Origin: Amphirosellinia nigrospora
Taxonomy: Eukaryota > Ascomycota > Sordariomycetes > Xylariales > Xylariaceae
Direction of reading: 5' to 3'
Assembly (NCBI GenBank): GCA_004123355.1
Contig: SCHM01000003.1
Location: forward strand, 7,397,058 to 7,461,057
Length of the DNA stretch: 64,000 nucleotides
Shown piece by piece: positions 671 to 11,748 of this stretch. Numbering within the stretch: the first letter of the stretch is position 1; every line of letters begins with the position of its first letter. Position numbers and translations under genes: made by a program. Below the pieces are notes generated by a model that was not told the DNA's origin, searched no databases, and saw only the letters and a list, made by a program, of their open reading frames with translations.

Positions 671-3619
671 TTGTGGGCCTGCGCTTTAGGGACTATTTCT
701 CTTATTTCTGCGTCAGTTAACTTGTCATCGCATAATTTTAGGCCTCATTTCTATCTTCATGTGCTGCAGAGGAGCAGGATGCCCTACCTGATTCAGTCTA
801 TCGAATGGCGGTTGCTCCAGGAGCTCGGGCGCCTGGTACGGCCAAAATTGGCTCGGTACCATATCCAATGGGACCTAACCCATGATAATATAGGGGCATC
901 ATCTCAAGCTGAGCATTTTGAAGTCGAGCTTCGGCAAGCCTTGTTCACCGAGGAACTTTCTACGGATCTGGATCAAAAAAACTACGATCAATGCCAAACC
1001 AAGTTAATGGCGCTATGTTCGTTGATGGATGGCCTCGTCAGGGCCCAGAGTGTCTACCTCGGCCCACCGGCCGCGCCCTATCCCCGTTTGAGCGCGTTTA
1101 TAAATTCTTAGGATCAGTATCCGAACCTCTTGACCTTATACATGGCCCCAACGAGACGCTTTTCAAGCTTCCTGGAAGCCCTCATGAGCTGAAAGAATGC
1201 TTACGAATTGTTTCCGAGTGTAACTTTGCCCTCGGTCAACTACTCAAACCCACTATACCGGTGGTGACAACGAGGCCGCCCGGAAGCGCAAAGGGGAAAG
1301 AGGCGTGGAAAAAAGCGAGACTTCGAAAACATACCACATTTATACTCAGTGCCTTATTTAAACACTTCAGGTGCGGCAAATCACATGAAGTATTGTTGAA
1401 ACTCACTAAGGATCTCGATGAGGATGCTGCATTGCCAAGTCTCCAGTTTTTTCTTTCATTATGTACAGAAATTGAATCGTGGCAAGAGGCATGGTGTGAA
1501 TCTGTTGCGCTGTAAGTTATTCATTTTTCGTCTCTGTTGCACGGATCTTTCCCTAATCTAATTTAAGGAATATGACTTCTGTTTCATTCATTCCCGACAT
1601 ATGTGAAGGTCTCAGACAGCAGGCCGGTCAGGGAAAGGCCTTGATACTCCTTCCTAAAGAGTATGCACTGTTTGGTGCCTGGGAATATTCCGCCTCCTCT
1701 GAAATTGATTTCTCCACCAAGGAATCTCTCCATCAACTAATTGTCGATGGGCTCTTCAAGCCTCATGACCTCAAAACTTTACTTAATGGGGCGTCTCCGC
1801 GCAAATTTAGCACTAAGGACAAGCGGAAACTTGCTGTCAAACTCGGGTTTTGCCTGATGGACTTCTTTGATGCCAACATTGCCACGAAACGTATTTATCT
1901 TTCAGGCTGCTCGGAATATAGTTCCCGGAGAGAATTTACATATCTGGGCTTCAACTCAAAGATTCCAGCAATACCCGATTCATATAACTTCGGGATGGGA
2001 CATCCTGCGCTCCTGTCCTTTGCGAAACTACTAATAGAAATCGACATTGGTGAAAGTATGGACCTATCTATCAGCCTCCATAATAGCCAAAATGCCAACG
2101 CCTACTTCCAGCTGATGTGTGTTGTGGACCGGCTGGAGCGAGAGAGAGATGACTCTTATGTCGAGGCGATTAGAGGATGCCTTATGGTTCATTCGGAGAT
2201 AGCGAAAGAGTTAAGGTCTCTTGGCCTCGAGGGTGAAGCGGCAGATCGTAGGATACGAAAAAAGATCTACAAAAAGGTTGTTAAGAAGCTCGAGCAAGGA
2301 CTTGACGAGTCAACTCCCAGGGCGGTCAACAAGCGTCAACGATCGATATCGCCTACTCGTGCTAGTTACTGGGAAGGAACTAAATGGTCCGAGTCTAAAA
2401 GATTAGCTTCGTATGCCGTCGAGTATGAACACGCGGTACCCAGAAATAAGAGACAACGAGCGTTTAGGTCAAAGTTAACCTCAGATGTGCGAAAGAGTGG
2501 CGAAAACGCGCACGTGGAAGAGGGGGCACCTCTAAAAGTGCTTCAGCCTAAGTCAACCCATTCACAGACCCAGCTTCAGCCACACGAAGAACTGGCAGCC
2601 CGCCGCGCCTCGATCACTGCGCATTGTTCGGATAACTGGTTTGCAGAGCTTGCAAACATGAACGCAGTAGTGAGGATCAAACCAAGGAACGAGATTTTCT
2701 ATCTCCCCAGATTAAGGTCGCCATTCTTGACACCGGGATCGAGAGCCAGCACTTGAATACTATTGCAGATTATCATGACTTCGTCAATGAGTCCAATTTG
2801 TCGTGTATAGATAGTACTGGGCATGGAACTAATGTGTTCCTCTTACTTCGAAAGGTTTGCGAAGACGCCCAGTACTTCATTGGGCGTGTTTGGGAGGGGA
2901 GCCAAGACACGGCCAAAACCCCAATACTCATGGAAAATGTAAGACAAACCCCCAACAGTGCAGCATGAAATCAGCTTAATATAACGAGAACTAACCTAAG
3001 CTTGATCAAAGGCAATCGACTACTCGAGAGAAGTCTGGAAAGTCGATATTATTGTCCTGTCTAGTGGATTTCGGACGGCACATAACAATATCGGAGACGC
3101 CATAGAACGGGCAAATATGGCAAGAATTCTCACTTTTGCCGCTCCTTCCAACTATGGAAATCTGAGCGATGTATACTATCCAGGACGGCTGTATGGCCTT
3201 GGCAAAGTCATATGCCTATTCTCAACGAATTCGATGGTGAGGAGCTCGACGACAAAGACGTTTAACCCTAGCCCACTCGACACAGCAGCACATAGAACGT
3301 TCGCAATACTTGGAGAAGACATAATTATAGAGAACCAAGAAGACGCACTGAACGGAACTTCTTATTCGACAGCTATTGGGCTGGTATCGCCGCTCGAATA
3401 CTCGATTTCTCGCGTCACACGCAGTTTAGAGAAAAAATAAAGAATATCGACGATCTGAAGAAAGTAGAGGGAATGCTGGCCGTATTCGGTAGGATGGCAA
3501 AGCGATCGGATAATGGATATCGATGTATTGCGCCGTGGGAAATATGCCCCCTCCAGAGGAAGGGATGGAGCGGCGTGAAGCCCGTCAGCATCAGCAATCT
3601 GCGGTTTTCGATGAATTGA
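671..3619 (+). CDS. DUF7580-like domain plus subtilisin-like serine peptidase (S8), frame broken at three homopolymers
   Basis: The first two thirds resemble the fungal DUF7580 region, a kinase-like helical domain found in NLR-related proteins (LGFCLMDFFD... then FGMGHPALLSFAKLLIEIDI). The last third is a peptidase S8 domain with the whole catalytic triad: Asp in VAILDTGIE (about 2715), His in STGHGT (about 2820) and Ser in NGTSYSTAI (about 3355). Two introns join in phase: 1512-1567 (gtaagt...ttaag) and 2939-3011 (gtaaga...aaag). The frame slips by one base at CCCC 1082-1085, CCCC 2705-2708 and GGG 3378-3380; one more base at each site restores sensible protein. The start is uncertain: an AG at 768-769 could end a further upstream intron, so the true first exon may be missed. 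The function would be a cytosolic regulatory protease; a gasdermin-like gene lies 2.4 kb away. Confidence 0.75.
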
Positions 3620-3753
3620 AAGAGGCCCTTAAGAATATCCATAGATCTTAACGAAGTCGAATGCGACAAACATCGCCATCATTCTCATTGTCAGCTATCC
3701 TAGTGTTGATTTATAATAACTGCACACTAAATTCCCATTCCATTTACAAGGGG

Positions 3754-4127
3754 TTGAGTTACGGATCTGCAGGCTCTGGTGGCTGTGCCCCACCACTAGC
3801 CACAGCACCCGTAATCTCCACTTGCAGTAACTGCCACTTGTAGTGAATGCAGTTGCAGTGAATGAAGGCAGGCACTGGCAGTGAATGCAGCTGCCCCACG
3901 CGGGTATTTAAGCAGCTGCCTATAATGTAGATTTAGACCTTCCTTCTTTCCTACTTTATCTGTAGATTTTATATGCAATATACCACATATGCTGGAGCCT
4001 TGTCTCTTCGAGTGTGTGAAGCGTACAGGTTGAATTGCTCGTGCTGAGTTGTCCTGTGCAAGCTTCAGGGGCCTGGCTAAGGAGTTGTCAAACCGAGTAA
4101 GATAGATATAAGTGTGAGACATAACAC
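3754..4127. mobile_element. Possible solo LTR remnant (Copia/Gypsy-type, uncertain)
   Basis: A stretch of about 374 bp begins TGAGTTACGGATCTGCAGG and ends GACATAACA, giving imperfect inverted TG..CA-type ends. It has a small stem-loop near the left end (GTGGCTGTG/CACAGC), several degenerate copies of GCAGTGAATG, and a TATA-like TATTTAA near 3905 followed by a pyrimidine-rich run, the usual order within an LTR. No clear 5-bp target duplication flanks it and no internal coding region adjoins it, so it is at best an old solo LTR. It could also be another short repeat family. Confidence 0.35.
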
Positions 4128-4165
4128 ATATCAGGAACGCATAATTTACCCTAAATGGTGATTAA

Positions 4166-5649
4166 CTACTCTTCTTTATTAGAACCCCCTTCAGCTGGGA
4201 TTGCTGATCTCTCGCCCTTCTTTTTCGGCTTCCCATGAGATACGATACGACTCCATGACCTAAAGCTGACTCTTCGCGCAGTCAAGGTTTCGAGAAGATA
4301 TTTTGTTTCCTCATCAACAACACATCTATTTAACTCGGCTACTGAGTCAATAGCAGTCGCTAACTTTCGACGGGCATCTGTAACCAGTTGAAACCCTGCG
4401 ACGTCCACATATCTTGCGGCTTCATTCTCCCTTTCTAATCCGATAATTCCCCTCGATCTGTAATATGGAACGATCTTTTTGTGTCGATGGATTAACAATG
4501 CCGTATGCAAAGCTAATAGCTTAATTCGGCCGAGAAGAAGTTCATCTTCGTTGATACCCGCAGTAGTTATAGGCGATTCTGCCAGTTGAAGAACATATGC
4601 AACAGTCTTACAATATTCCCATGCATCGTCATGAATCGGTTCTGGATAGGAATATAAATATTCCTCGGTGGTGAGCTGTATGAGAAATCTCGCAAGTCTC
4701 GTGGAGTAGTTAGAGACATGGCGTATCACCCAAGTAGGCGTTCCGAAAGTAAATGGATATGCCTCAAGTACACTGACAGCAGCGTCTGGTTCTAGATCGG
4801 CTCGTCGTTCTTTAGGCTGACTAGGAAAGTATTCGACTATAGCCTAGAGGATAACGCCAACAGCATTAGCGGTCATAGTCGATCAACTAAAACTATCACG
4901 TTCTGCAGTGTAAGGGACGAAAATACCTCTAAAACAGCGAATTGGTCCTCAGTAGACTTGATCGTCTTCTGTTTAAGATTTTCCCAAGGGACATCCTCAT
5001 CTTGAGGATCTACGTCTAAGTCAAAATTGTCGATCAATGGCTTATAGAAGAGGCCTTTTGGGCTTTGACTCGAAACCATGGCGATCGTCATAGTTCCTAT
5101 CTCAACTTTAAACGGTATGTGGGCGTCGTATAACAATGCTATATCGTGTGTAAGGAAACGGCACAAGTCTTGCACCTGCTGGGTGGTTAATTTGGGTAGG
5201 TGGCGCTTCTTCGAACAATGAAGTCGAGTCGTGAGCGACCAATAGCCGGCCTCAGGATATTGTAGCTTAATGTACTCCATGATGCCGCGCTCGATTTCGC
5301 GCTCGATTTCGCGCTCATCTTTTGCTATGATAGAAGGAACCACACCAACTAGTCCAAGGGTCATGATTTTTCTAAACCAGGATAGAGCGCGATCGTAGTC
5401 CTCTGGGCGATAACGAGGTGATTTCATCCCTGGTCTCGGTCTCGTCTGATTCGGCATCGGTGGCTGCGGCGACTCTGCCGAACGTTTCTTGAGAACTCTG
5501 CCGTGAGCGATCATCTTAAGGAGGGAGGTATTATCTATTTGGAACTTCCTGCGGAGCTTGCGGAGCAAGCTGGGCGAGTGACGCATTGCCTGCCGCTTGA
5601 TCTGTGTGTAGTCTTGACGTAGGTCAGAATCGCTACCAGAGTCAGACAT
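4166..5649 (-). CDS. Conserved-looking protein of unknown function, intact, one intron
   Basis: Two exons (5649-4900 and 4843-4166) flank a clean 56-nt intron (gtgata...cctctag, with gctaat before the acceptor). The phase-0 join gives 475 residues with no frame break. I chose the ATG at 5649 (MSDSGSDSD...) because an acidic-serine start is more typical than the extra 38 residues from the in-frame ATG at 5763. The N-terminal 100 residues are basic, serine- and proline-rich. Two near-identical EREIE units sit near residue 115. The middle and C-terminal parts look alpha-helical, and the tail is lysine-rich (GKPKKKGERS). No catalytic motif, membrane span or signal peptide is visible and I do not recognise the family. 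It lies between the subtilase gene and the gasdermin-like gene, transcribed in the same direction as the latter. Confidence 0.8.
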
Positions 5650-6007
5650 AGTTAAGAAGTTGGTGTCGATGATGAACAACGATGAGTGTAAGCTGGGGAA
5701 GAAAGACTTCCATGCTAAGTCTATGATTTTATATTTACCTAGTGTTGTTTGTGTGCAAGGCATCCTAAATGCGTGTATCTGTGTAGCGCCTCAGGTCGGG
5801 ATATTTAAAAATGTTTAAGTGACAAAGTTAATTAGTTCACGCGTGTCGGGCGCGTACAAGTTGAACTAGAAAACCGGGCTAAAAGCTTTTTGGTGCGCTT
5901 GAAAGTGAGACAGGGGCAATGGAGGCCCCATAATTCTGACAACGCCACCTACCAGCCATGGGCTGGGCATCACGTCCAGGACATACTAATATCGGTATAT
6001 AGAAGTA

Positions 6008-7036
6008 TTAGATACAATAAAAATGTGATTTTAAACCGGGGTGTTTAGTACCATTCATAAAAACTTCATTTATTATATATCTCAAGTGTGATTGATTCGT
6101 GGCGAAGCTGCCAGTAATTTCGACGACGGAGATCAACTCAAAATCACCAAGCAACGGCAATAAACTCGGAGGAGAATGATCAAAGGATGAAAACTTCCTC
6201 CGCGTAGGTTTCCGGGGGCTAATGATATCCTCATAGATATGCCCACCCGCTTTCAATCGAGTTTTAATGAGCTCTAATGCTTCTTCATAATTATCATCTG
6301 CACTGAATGTAGCGCCTTCCGATAATGTTGCCCAGGACCATGTCTTATCAAGGAGCCCTTTCGTAACCTTTGCGACCCTAACCGCAAAGACGAAGTCATC
6401 CACTTGTCCAGAGGACCAAGACTCCTTGCCAGTTAAGACATCAAACCCGCCACCTGCGCCCGCAATATTGGACGCGCCGGCTGTTGCTTCCGCATTGAGA
6501 CCGTGCTCTTTTTTCTCGCTCTCTAGAAGCCTCGCCTTGCGTCCCACCATGATCCCTGTGATGAGATATAAGGATGGGCTCTTGATGAGCCAAGTCTTGT
6601 GCTTGTGTATATAACTCTCGACCTCGTCCGTTTCCATGGTATCATCGACATAGCTCTGTGTGATGTTTACAGTAAATGTCTCGAGTCTTTCAAACTCCCA
6701 ACAGCGACTGACTGCCTTTTTGAAGGCGATACCCGCACCAAGACCAATATTTACGCCGAAAGCAGCTGCGACGGGGGCATCAGCCTTCGTAGTGACGTCT
6801 ATATGACCCTCATCAGTCGATTTCCACTCAAAGTTGTAAGCCCTCCCAGTCACAACTGGCATACTGGGTGGGTATTCCAGTGGCCCAGTTTCCGGGTTGA
6901 TGATGTCGATTAACTTGGTGTTTGTCACTAGATGACCAATTGACAGGGATCCTTTGGATTTGCCTATGCCGCAGTTTGGTATAGTTGGGGGGTTATGGTA
7001 GCTGTGCCGTAGCACAAACCAGCATCTGTCTGTCAT
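6008..7036 (-). CDS. Widespread fungal protein family with gasdermin-like layout
   Basis: An intact single-exon ORF of 342 residues starts MTDRCWFVLRHSY. It matches my memory of a common, multi-copy Pezizomycotina family with the landmarks GHLV...DIINPETGPL, YNFEW, a hydrophobic glycine/alanine hairpin (PVAAAFGVNIGLGAGIAFK), CWEFERLETF, SLYLITGIMVGR and DDFVFAVRVAKV. The order of amphipathic strand, LETFTV-type strand, 'LY-hydrophobic-T' strand, glycine-rich loop and 'FVFAVRV' strand is colinear with the metazoan gasdermin N-domain landmarks (LYVV.EV, then AFRV..L). From this I infer a possible pore-forming gasdermin-like fold, with the last ~90 residues as a candidate inhibitory tail. There is no signal peptide, so it is probably cytosolic. 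The subtilase gene at 671-3619 is a plausible activating partner. The family assignment is fairly secure; the gasdermin link is not. Confidence 0.6.
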   Translation of the reverse strand: MTDRCWFVLRHSYHNPPTIPNCGIGKSKGSLSIGHLVTNTKLIDIINPETGPLEYPPSMPVVTGRAYNFEWKSTDEGHIDVTTKADAPVAAAFGVNIGLGAGIAFKKAVSRCWEFERLETFTVNITQSYVDDTMETDEVESYIHKHKTWLIKSPSLYLITGIMVGRKARLLESEKKEHGLNAEATAGASNIAGAGGGFDVLTGKESWSSGQVDDFVFAVRVAKVTKGLLDKTWSWATLSEGATFSADDNYEEALELIKTRLKAGGHIYEDIISPRKPTRRKFSSFDHSPPSLLPLLGDFELISVVEITGSFATNQSHLRYIINEVFMNGTKHPGLKSHFYCI

Positions 7037-9404
7037 TGGAAGAATAACTTCTGGGAGTACTGAATGTGCACTACTTCAAAGAGACACGTTCAAATCAAGA
7101 CGCAGAAAATATGTTTGCTACAATAGAAGCTATCATCAAAGCAAGAGACTAATTGAGACGGAACCCATAGGTGCTTAAATATGCGGGCTAGGGCGGGGTA
7201 ATGGCTTTTGCGTTCCACCTTTATTGGCAGCCTGATTAATGCAGAAGGGGCGCAGTATTTAGGCAACAATGGATACACAGCCATTTTAATAGTCAAATAC
7301 CTCATATACTATAAGCTCGTTGAAATGTGAGGTATATATGAGCGAAGTATTCAACTGGCTAACTATATGACAGAGTAGGCGAGATGACCTGCTTATATAC
7401 ATGCCGGGTGCCTCGTGCTCTTGTATAGTATCCGAAATGAGTCCTTGACCTAATCCACCTTTAATGAAGCTTTCAGAGATCATGACGTCGCATATGTAAG
7501 CAGGTCTCTCCACTTCACTTACATATACCCCTGTAAAGTGTACAGGATGTTCAAGCAGAAGTTAATGCAAGTTAGCAGGGCCTAACGAATCGCGGTTCAC
7601 TCTGTTATATTCAACATACATACAATCGGGGACTAATTTGCAGTCCAATGGAAAGGGGAAGTCTATTACCTATCTCCTTCTTTTCCCCTCCTCGACCATT
7701 CGGATTCGAGCTTCACAAGTTTGGAGATTGCGCTTATATTAATACTGATTTATATTTCCTCTTTAACGTAGAACACTATAAAACGCTACCAAAGCCGCAT
7801 TGCCATTTTATCCACCTCGCCATGAGAACTTGCGAATCAACCGTTGAACGATGTCTGGTATGCGGATTGGCGGATTGGCTATTTACTGCGGCATTAAGAC
7901 CTGGCCCCGAACTTGCTTAGACACTCATCATAGCTACATAGACGATGCTGAGTCTGGCTGGCTTCCACTCATTTGCTTCATCCATGTCCATCAGATGGCT
8001 TTGGAAGGGTCAGTAGACCTTCCCCTCGCAGAGGACCGCCGACACATTGCTTTTTAAGTCACCATTGGGGAGTCGCGCCCTTCTTGAAGTTAAGTAGGCG
8101 AGACTTTGCCAGGCTTAGCGAGAATGTGCCGTAAAAGAGATTTCGACAAACTTTCAGGAATGCAATAATCGCTGCACACAAGCTCGGCGTTAGGTATCTT
8201 TGGATCGAGGGCTCATAAAGGAGATCAGAATCGCACTAAGAAGCGGGGAACATAGCAATAGTCTATAGTAACGCTCTTCTCATGTTGGCAAACATGAGGA
8301 TTTCGTTGGTCTATGGTATAAAAAAGTTGAATGGTACTGCAGGTGTAGCTTTCCGAGCTTACTGACAAGCTTGGCGCCATAGGTCGTCTAAGAAGAACAT
8401 TCTCGCCAACCATAGAAACAGACCATATAGCTAGACTCTAGAGCGAGCACACAATTAGCGGCCTTTCATGGGAAAAAGCCACCAATGATGGCCAAAGAGT
8501 TGGCGATTACAGACGTAAAGTGAACTAGTTCGCCCTCATTTATAATAGCCAACCCTCTCACCCTTTTCTCTCGATAGCTCCTTCCTCGTCTTGGGGTTTA
8601 GGGGAAGGTGTTGTGAAATGCAACATTCCTGTCCTATTTTTTTAGAAAATCTATACATCACTCTGGTGTCTTCTAGTGAGTTTTGAGAGCTTTGGGCAGT
8701 GTTATTGAAGTTAGGGGTTGACTTATCGACATTGGTGCATCCGATGGCCGAACCTCGAGAGACCTGTGATACATAGACAAATATTTCAGGATCTCCCTTA
8801 ACGACTTGCTCTACCAACACTGGCCAAATATACTACACATAATCAATAAAAACAGATACCGAGAAAGTACTAGTCATTCCTCATTTCTCAAAAGTCAAGC
8901 AACGAACCTTGGTAGACCCCTTTTATGAGCGGCTTGGGCTCGTATGAACGGTTTCGAATAGTAGGCAGGAATTTCTTCGTGGGGGATACACCCCTTGAAC
9001 ATCTATACGTTTATGGTCTTTATTATTTCCCAGGACTAGCGGTAGAAATGTGGCTCATGCATTCACCTTCGAAGATTTTGAGCGGTGAGATTTTCGAACC
9101 TCGAGACTAGTGTAGGCTTTTGTTGCAGTTGACATCTACAGGACTTGGCAACGCGAATGCTAAACCCTGAATACGAGCATAGTAAACTAAAGTCCTCGTA
9201 GTTTCTATGCGTTGACGTTCAGGCTTTGAGATCTCCGAACGAAAATCGTAACAAATAGGGTTTCTCATTTCCTCAAATCATGGATGGGTATACTGCTCCT
9301 ACGGCACCGAGTGGTTCTTTTGCTTTTCATACTCATAGTTCATTTATCCTTCCCATAGACATGTATAGCGCTCATTTTTCTCTTCTGCGACTCGCAATAG
9401 CTCA
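7037..9404. other. 2.4 kb with no gene I can support
   Basis: Base composition is ordinary. There are several short ORFs on both strands, none with a recognisable motif or a convincing intron partner. The best of a poor set is a 94-codon minus-strand ORF at 8536-8820, with a possible acceptor just upstream; I could not extend it. The stretch separates the gasdermin-like gene from the OTU-like gene, whose 3' end is at 9405. Confidence 0.5.
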
Positions 9405-11748
9405 TCACATTGACTTATCCATGGGGTCCACATCAATACCAAAATCCTTTGCGTGTTGTTGGAAGTTGTGACTCTCATAGGCTTTGATATTATTCCATTC
9501 TGGCCACCTTTCATTGCCACCTGCGTCTATGTATATGCCGGTTACAATTTTATTGTTGCCGAAAGGATAAGGATATGGGTTAGGAAAGGGTGGCACCGTC
9601 CACTCCTGTGTCCAACCTGCTTGATCTGGATCTAGAGATTTTATATAAGATTAGTATTGGCGGACTAAAATGATCTGACATGGATTGAGTTGCTTTGTAT
9701 ACAACTCGGAATGGTGTGCGGTGCTCAGGAGAATCAAGGGTTATCGTCCAGTCTTTCGAGCCCCAAGCAAACAGTGATGATAATGGAGAAAACATTTTAC
9801 CTGGAAATATTGTCTCATTGGCCTCTTCGTTCTTGTCCTCGCGGGCAACATTCCCCAAGCCAAAAAGAGATCAGACCATTGGATATCGTCTTTGAATGCA
9901 TTATCGTCTATTGGGGCAAGAGGAAGATGAATCGGTTCGTAGTCAGACGCCAGCGGCCTAATCACTATTAGAGAGCGGAGTCAGTATCCCAGCTGGCTTG
10001 AAAAGGGGTAGGAGCTGCACACTCCACGGCGCATCTATCCAACCGTATCTATCTTCGGCATCTGAGGACGAGGTGTCAAAATATTGCTCAGGGTGGCCGT
10101 CGAAATATATCGCAATCTGGTACTGCTCTGGTGTTTCATCCGTTACTAGCAAAATTTGTCCTCGATCCAGCCCGTCGTTTATCCTCCCATGTGCTAGACG
10201 TTTCTGAATTAACTAACGATATGCTTATCGGTAATTTCGATGAAATAGGCTAGATTAACTTTTTCATTGCTTGGTGGGGGTCTTTTTCTTTACTCAAATC
10301 AAAGAGGCTCGACGAAGGAATCTACCTACCTCTCCATTCATAATGCCGAGGCGGGTCGGCCCGTAAATCGGCCCATACTGGCATCCTTGTCCGTCTGGTG
10401 AACACGACAACTTCTTTACCGAAGAAGTCCGCGATAACTTGATAAATCCCTGTGAAATTACAGTACACTTTGGACAAACCGAAGTTAGTAAGTGAGTAAG
10501 TGTAACAAGTGGTCGTGGAGGCAGCAGTCATCAGTAAAATGTATACATACTTGGAGGGCCTGAATGAGGTTTATTTGTATATAGCGCCCTTTGAATAGAC
10601 ATCCGACCCCATAGGCGCTCAGAGCCTGGGGTTCGAGCCTCAATTTCGTGACTTGACTCCTGTTGAAGAACAACGTACATCCGATGGCGTGGATGACTAT
10701 GATGCGAAATAGTCGTTAGGATGACATAAAAATATAGATCCGCGATGATTTGGGGTTTTAACTCACGCAGGGTGAGCGAGGACGTGGTTGAAATACTTCC
10801 AGATCCGAAACTTGATCGTAGTCCACGCCTCACGACTTCCACCACCCATCGGAGGACCGTAACTATCAGAGATTAATTATAATTTTAGCAGTTAGTCGAA
10901 ACGCAACTCACGCGAGACAATACCACAGCGAGTTCCCATCTTCGGGAAAATTTATAACACCTAGTTCAGCATGGCCGCTCGAATGTGTAGCAGTGAACCC
11001 GGATGCACGGCAAGAGTCAAGATATCTTCTTAGTTCGTGATATTTGTTCCTGAGTTTTCTTCGTATTCTCGAGCACTGGGCCATAGTTCACCGCCGGCTG
11101 ATATCGAAAAGCTAACTCGTCGCGATTAGGTTGAAAAACTGTGTCTATATAGTCGGATAGAGCAGCCCAGTCGGGGAGGGGGTCAGGTAGATCGTCCAAG
11201 CTGAATCCGGGACATTTGATTGCCCTGTGTCGTCCGTGAGGTCGATGCGGCCAGACTTGTCTAAATTTTCGGTTCTGTAATGGTGTAACGTGCGAATAGA
11301 CACTTCCAACAAAATCAGTCAAATTGAAAACCTTCAGGCAGTACCGATACTCATAGAGATAATTTGAAAGCATACTTAAGCAACGGTTTATTTTTTCTCT
11401 GCGAGAGCTTTGAGCCAGCATTCCACGTAGATCTAGCCGGCGCTGTCACGTGCCAAACTAAGACATATTGATCATGAGTATGTTCGGCGTGTCTAAGTCT
11501 TCAAGGTCCTTACTCACCTAACCTTCGGAAGTAATCCTCTGCTTGTTCTCGACTTGGTTTTGGAGGAGCCGGTTGATTCCGTTTGGCGCCAAGTCCAACA
11601 TTGTAATATGCGACCTGAATATCCCATAGTCAAACATCGTTCTCTTAGTTGATAGATTGTCAATGGTGTCTTTCATAAGGGGGATATAAGGCCCCGGCAG
11701 GTTTGGATCTGGCACAGGGCCACTAGTTATCTCAACAGCGTGAGCCAT
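9405..11748 (-). CDS. Multi-exon protein, possibly OTU-protease-like with Ser at the Cys position
   Basis: A gene of about eight exons starts MAHAVEITSGPVPDPNLPG and ends GIDVDPMDKSM. Several splice sites are excellent: gtgagt after AEDYFRRLG, ctctgatag before YGPPMGGG, gcatcatag before HPRHRMYVV and ctctag before the last exon. In the middle, PEDGNSLWYCLA followed about 90 residues later by GSERLWG, IADFFGKEVVVFTR and IAIYFDGHPEQYF mirrors the OTU order (DGNC-LW box, WG/ADFF segment, C-terminal His). The expected nucleophile Cys is Ser here. Frame slips of one base fall at CCC 11623-11625, T6 11391-11396, AAAA 11107-11110, TTTT 11055-11058 and CCCC 9853-9856. Two junctions (near 10205 and 9970) are not settled: the intron phase near 10205 does not fit, and near 9970 a 58-nt intron is only one option. 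I do not recognise the N- or C-terminal parts. Confidence 0.55.

Follow-up and report, generated by a model that had tools for sequence, protein, structure and literature searches.

Background

Pairs of a gasdermin and an activating protease are already known in fungi. According to excerpts of PMC10197012, the neighbourhood of some 1,900 fungal gasdermin genes includes a protease gene in about 80% of cases, and about 63% are clustered with S8 proteases, with 18 architectures distinguished. Protease domains are fused also to 'predicted kinase-like domains' (PMC12881547, in extract). In Podospora anserina the gasdermin HET-Q1 has 278 residues and is cut at F238, whereby 40 residues are lost (PMC10989679, in extract). 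We analysed a stretch of 64,000 nucleotides from Amphirosellinia nigrospora (contig SCHM01000003.1, positions 7,397,058 to 7,461,057; referred to as the window), in which a preliminary description had proposed a subtilase-gasdermin pair and had pointed to the frequent clustering of such genes in fungi. The pair represents an instance of a reported type of system, since both the clustering and the kinase-like fusions have been published; its less familiar component is the sensor part, DUF7580.

The two genes probably (roughly 80%) constitute a cis-encoded fungal module of regulated cell death, composed of a gasdermin executioner and a sensor-protease. Its basis in the data is the family membership of both proteins, the residues of the catalytic triad, the contigs shared by relatives, a conserved phenylalanine and the length of the tail that follows it. 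The proposed pairing is supported by the homology to RCD-1, the S8 triad, the shared contigs and the presence of another gasdermin beside an S8 gene elsewhere in this genome.

The gasdermin gene and its C-terminal tail

The following features were assigned to the gasdermin gene.

7036-6008, minus strand: open reading frame (ORF) of a fungal gasdermin, 342 residues, assigned by sequence match to RCD-1, by relatives and by fold search
6323..7030, minus strand: RCD-1-like pore-forming domain, residues 3-238, from phmmer
6305..6307, minus strand: Phe244, candidate cleavage point, from a column in the alignment of 13 of 14 relatives

Judged by its sequence, ORF 7036-6008 is a fungal gasdermin of the RCD-1 group, with a predicted capacity for pore formation. 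In a phmmer search of PDB chains it matched RCD-1-1 of Neurospora crassa (8jyz_A) over residues 3-238 with an E-value of 4.2e-34 and RCD-1-2 with an E-value of 9.5e-27, which bears out the gasdermin-like gene proposed at 6008-7036, while no family of Pfam-A was matched. A comparison with gasdermin structures had been suggested as a check: all 14 Foldseek matches of the predicted model with E-values of at most 0.001 were RCD-1 chains (best 6e-9), the model itself being weak.

A protein search yielded 14 gasdermin relatives, the closest from Xylaria cubensis with 73% identity. Six of them have 283-285 residues; the others range from 196 to 358, some being partial. The end of the window gasdermin differs from that of 12 aligned relatives and extends 58 residues beyond the 284-residue form. 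An alternative frame of the 3' DNA resembles the last residues of the close relatives, and the open frame continues to residue 342.

Thirteen of the 14 relatives were aligned, and one of these lacked the column of Phe244, leaving 12 for comparison. In this column 11 relatives carry Phe and one Tyr. Exactly 40 residues follow it in seven of the 12, and 37, 39, 42, 49 and 49 in the others. The conserved Phe and the tail of 37-49 residues are thus features seen in the relatives; the window's own tail ends in a different frame. Compared by position only, the candidate Phe is as far from the end of the protein as F238 is in HET-Q1.

The protease gene

The protease gene lies on the opposite strand and comprises the following features.

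779..~3651, plus strand: protease gene with N-terminal helical region, DUF7580, linker and S8 subtilase
1306..2309, plus strand: DUF7580 domain (PF24476), split by the intron 1512-1567
2711..3545, plus strand: S8 subtilase domain, ends approximate, with the intron 2939-3011 inside
2729, 2822 and 3360, plus strand: catalytic codons for Asp, His and Ser, from the sequence
1512-1567 and 2939-3011, plus strand: introns, both GT-AG
near 1080, 2685, 3373 and 3550, plus strand: four frame changes without an intron

The closest relative of the protease is a protein of 916 residues from Xylaria acuta (P0015) with 68% identity; the closest relatives of both the protease and the gasdermin therefore belong to Xylaria (Xylariales). 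Of the subtilase described previously at 671-3619, the triad of Asp, His and Ser was present, and the limits had to be revised to an ATG at 779 and an end at approximately 3651. When the protein was joined piecewise across the frame changes, Pfam recognized Peptidase_S8 above the cut-off (E-value 9.5e-7); the S8 pieces scored singly stayed below it. The fold matches of the protease model were S8 throughout the best 50, 50 and 60 of three lists. The triad codons lie within one continuous spliced frame (~2686-2938 joined to 3012-3372), which is flanked by frame changes on both sides. DUF7580 had been named before and was recovered by its Pfam profile with an E-value of 1.2e-82. Likewise in keeping with the preliminary description, which had seen no NOD-like receptor (NLR) part, no NB-ARC or NACHT domain was found in the piecewise protein with Pfam at E-values up to 0.1, DUF7580 and S8 being the only domains.

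Gene neighbourhood in relatives and in the same genome

The neighbourhood of the two families in other genomes was assessed by identical contig sizes in the gasdermin and the protease records; both relative searches scored limited candidate sets. Taking equal size to mean the same contig, gasdermin and protease relatives occurred together in five genome records, four from Xylaria and one from Lasiodiplodia.

Xylaria cubensis: contig of 443,964, F4860DRAFT_478939 and _478936
Xylaria hypoxylon: contig of 240,512, E0Z10_g2277 (partial entry) and g2278
Xylaria grammica: contig of 41,325
Lasiodiplodia mahajangana (Botryosphaeriales): contig of 57,162, O1611_g69 and g68
Xylaria arbuscula: contig of 8,430, NPX13_g8433 and g8432

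The locus tags of gasdermin and protease are consecutive in three of these five records. According to the precomputed Pfam annotations, two of the five partner proteases contain both domains and three only DUF7580; all five align across the region of the S8 Ser.

The window belongs to a genome of 48.1 Mb in 11 contigs. With the window gasdermin as query, only this gene itself was found there. A second, diverged gasdermin was located at C7:328782-329231, supported by a family profile with an E-value of 2.8e-12. It is arranged tail-to-tail with an S8 ORF (E-value 2.3e-17) at a distance of about 170 bases; in coordinates of a stretch of C7 near position 328,000, the pair is made up as follows.

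8710-9576, minus strand: gasdermin gene
7505-8538, plus strand: S8 gene

Both gasdermins detected in this genome thus lie beside an S8 gene. The chance of a single gasdermin lying within 10 kb of an S8 locus is about 0.8% with approximately 20 S8 loci (19 counted by hand plus that of the window), a number that is a lower bound. An ORF upstream in the C7 locus gave a sub-threshold Pfam match to DUF7580 (18.5 bits against a cut-off of 27); a search of that locus with a profile built from close relatives failed to recover the domain.

As described previously, a distance of about 2.4 kb separates protease and gasdermin in the window, and it is occupied by one gene.

4166..5649, minus strand: intervening gene, 466 residues, intron 4844-4926

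For this gene a single relative was obtained among 7,998 candidates scored, from Xylaria palmicola with 39% identity. It was considered as a third component and rejected on account of the single relative and because, in three records, protease and gasdermin carry consecutive locus tags; these leave no annotated gene between the two, so the intervening gene is not a constant part of the arrangement. On the other side of the protease, a minus-strand gene extends from position 460 to the left edge of the window and beyond, with no Pfam family above the cut-off. About 550-1,150 bases to the left of the window, a spacing of Cys and His like that of C2H2 zinc fingers is visible by eye, with no Pfam match up to an E-value of 0.1.

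Evaluation of the proposed module

Several observations weigh against a functional module of the two genes. The AlphaFold model of the gasdermin, built from an alignment of 14 rows, reached a predicted local distance difference test (pLDDT) score of 40.7 and a predicted template modelling (pTM) score of 0.44; because of this weakness, the assignment of the gasdermin fold rests mainly on the phmmer match. The sequence matches to the gasdermin in C7 were weak and came from two distant relatives (E-values 7e-4 and 1e-4). At a further locus combining DUF7580 and S8 (C1:3351719-3353276), no gasdermin was detected by profile in the two flanking stretches of 10 kb. Conservation of the neighbourhood, which had been put forward as a test of the pair, held for five of the 14 gasdermin relatives; the other nine were without a protease partner on the same contig among the matches listed, and several protease relatives, e.g. 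those of X. acuta and X. castorea, were without a listed gasdermin. Finally, both window genes are interrupted in frame in the assembly, the protease by four changes and the gasdermin by one.

These interruptions relative to the related proteins would also be expected of a decayed copy, in which true frameshifts inactivated the protease and altered the tail of the gasdermin, and pseudogenisation has been proposed as a route to incompatibility systems (PMC10197012, in extract). Similar breaks were, however, encountered in HSP70 and RPB2-type genes of the same assembly. HSP70 matches were split into three pieces at C8:855379-857197, two pieces at C5:5320645-5322154 and four at C7:1398639-1400377, with contiguous profile positions at all three loci and the fourth piece of the last at a distance of 10 bases. 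RPB2-type matches were split into three pieces at C8:649268-650336 and into six at C6:2233230-2234286, and at all five loci adjacent pieces lay in different frames. Unbroken matches were found in this assembly as well: three of RPB1 type, which were short, with one Pfam domain each and no stop, one HSP70 match of 1.28 kb, and one RPB2-type piece with an in-frame TAG. The splitting of essential genes into pieces in different frames indicates indel errors in the assembly, and the breaks in the window genes are therefore weak evidence of decay. In addition, the pieces of the protease between the frame changes are free of stops and both introns retain their GT-AG ends. Assembly error is thus likelier than decay as the cause of the frame changes. 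The reading as a pseudogene pair was set aside, since several essential genes share such breaks, and we regard it as unlikely. Frame changes of this kind in several essential genes call for care with any finding of a broken gene in this genome.

It is more improbable still that the gasdermin acts in the manner of RCD-1, through a second allele and independently of proteolysis, with the protease as a merely historical neighbour: the nearest solved structures are indeed those of RCD-1, whose control is not by cleavage (PMC12881547, in extract), but the solved chains matched by sequence included no gasdermin other than RCD-1, so that the match says little on the mode of control, and five gasdermin relatives have a protease relative on their contig and 37-49 residues are retained behind the conserved Phe.

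For the cell-death module of gasdermin and sensor-protease, we infer autoinhibition by the N-terminal part of the protease, a signal, cleavage and a pore. The roughly 40 residues of its C-terminal tail would keep the gasdermin inactive. The N-terminal helical region and DUF7580 may silence the S8 domain until a non-self or danger signal is received; given that a single genome holds both genes in cis, the protease would be expected to stay silent in the resting state. The active subtilase would then cut the gasdermin near Phe244, leading to loss of the tail, and the freed N-terminal domain would oligomerise in the plasma membrane and cause cell death.

DUF7580 as a putative sensor part

The domain composition of the protease relatives offers a view on the part preceding the S8 domain. 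Among 66 relatives listed, whose annotations were counted by hand and which stem from the 7,996 candidates with the greatest word overlap with the query, DUF7580 was combined with S8 in 19 and with PF01048 in 36, and occurred as the only domain in nine; one protein had S8 only and one S8 together with NB-ARC and TPR. Many of the 36 combinations of DUF7580 and nucleoside phosphorylase are from Trichoderma. In the NB-ARC protein, from Truncatella angustata (P0079), S8 forms the C-terminal end, and residues 1204-1484 of 1514 align with the S8 residues 597-881 of X. acuta P0015 at 41% identity. The Pfam N-terminal domains listed for fungal NLRs include both Peptidase_S8 and PNP_UDP_1 (PMC9815663, in extract).

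As the relatives carry either S8 or PF01048 behind DUF7580, this domain resembles a sensor scaffold with an exchanged effector. There is about an even chance that DUF7580 proteins form a fungal receptor scaffold alongside the NLRs, in which a helical and DUF7580 sensor is joined to an exchangeable executioner, either a nucleoside phosphorylase or an S8 protease that has a gasdermin as its partner.

The preliminary description had called DUF7580 a kinase-like module; the domain was recovered, the kinase likeness found no confirmation. No protein kinase was matched in a profile search of PDB sequences or in Pfam, and hhalign of DUF7580 against six kinase stretches gave a Prob under 1, a small comparison of little weight. 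Protein kinases were absent from the best 50 of 129 fold matches; the fold lists of the protease, whose matches listed were all S8, barely probed DUF7580. The order of strands and helices in the model may be read as kinase-like, a reading that the sequence, Pfam and fold searches did not confirm. The name 'DUF7580' was not found in the literature searched, which excluded the primary PNAS 2022 survey.

A review from 2025 names the nature of the triggers of fungal death sensors as a major open question (PMC12881547, in extract). The genes described here would offer a compact two-gene system whose sensor is not an NLR and whose sensor part, protease and candidate cleavage Phe are separable for study, and the exchange of S8 and nucleoside phosphorylase behind DUF7580 could help to show which part reads the signal.

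Comparison with known systems

Judged by titles, no paper on the Xylaria gasdermin pair was found in the literature searched. The pair shares with HET-Q1/HET-Q2 of P. anserina a fungal gasdermin of similar length and an S8 subtilase. HET-Q2, however, is a protease of 388 residues (PMC10989679 and PMC12881547, in extract), whereas about 600 residues precede the protease domain in the window, and het-Q1 and het-Q2 are alternative idiomorphs at one locus, in contrast to the window genes, which are present in cis in one genome (PMC12881547, in extract). With RCD-1 of N. crassa the gasdermin has in common a homologous pore-forming domain over residues 3-238; RCD-1 itself comprises 244-257 residues and is activated by the pairing of two allelic variants, without a protease (PMC12881547, in extract). 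Fungal S8 proteins of the NLR type have the same protease family, but the front part is here DUF7580, with no NB-ARC or NACHT match. In layout the pair resembles the two-gene clusters of the Q2L type, in which the S8 gene likewise lies within 10 kb of the gasdermin gene, at 2.4 kb in the window, and from which the pair described here differs in having DUF7580 as its sensor part.

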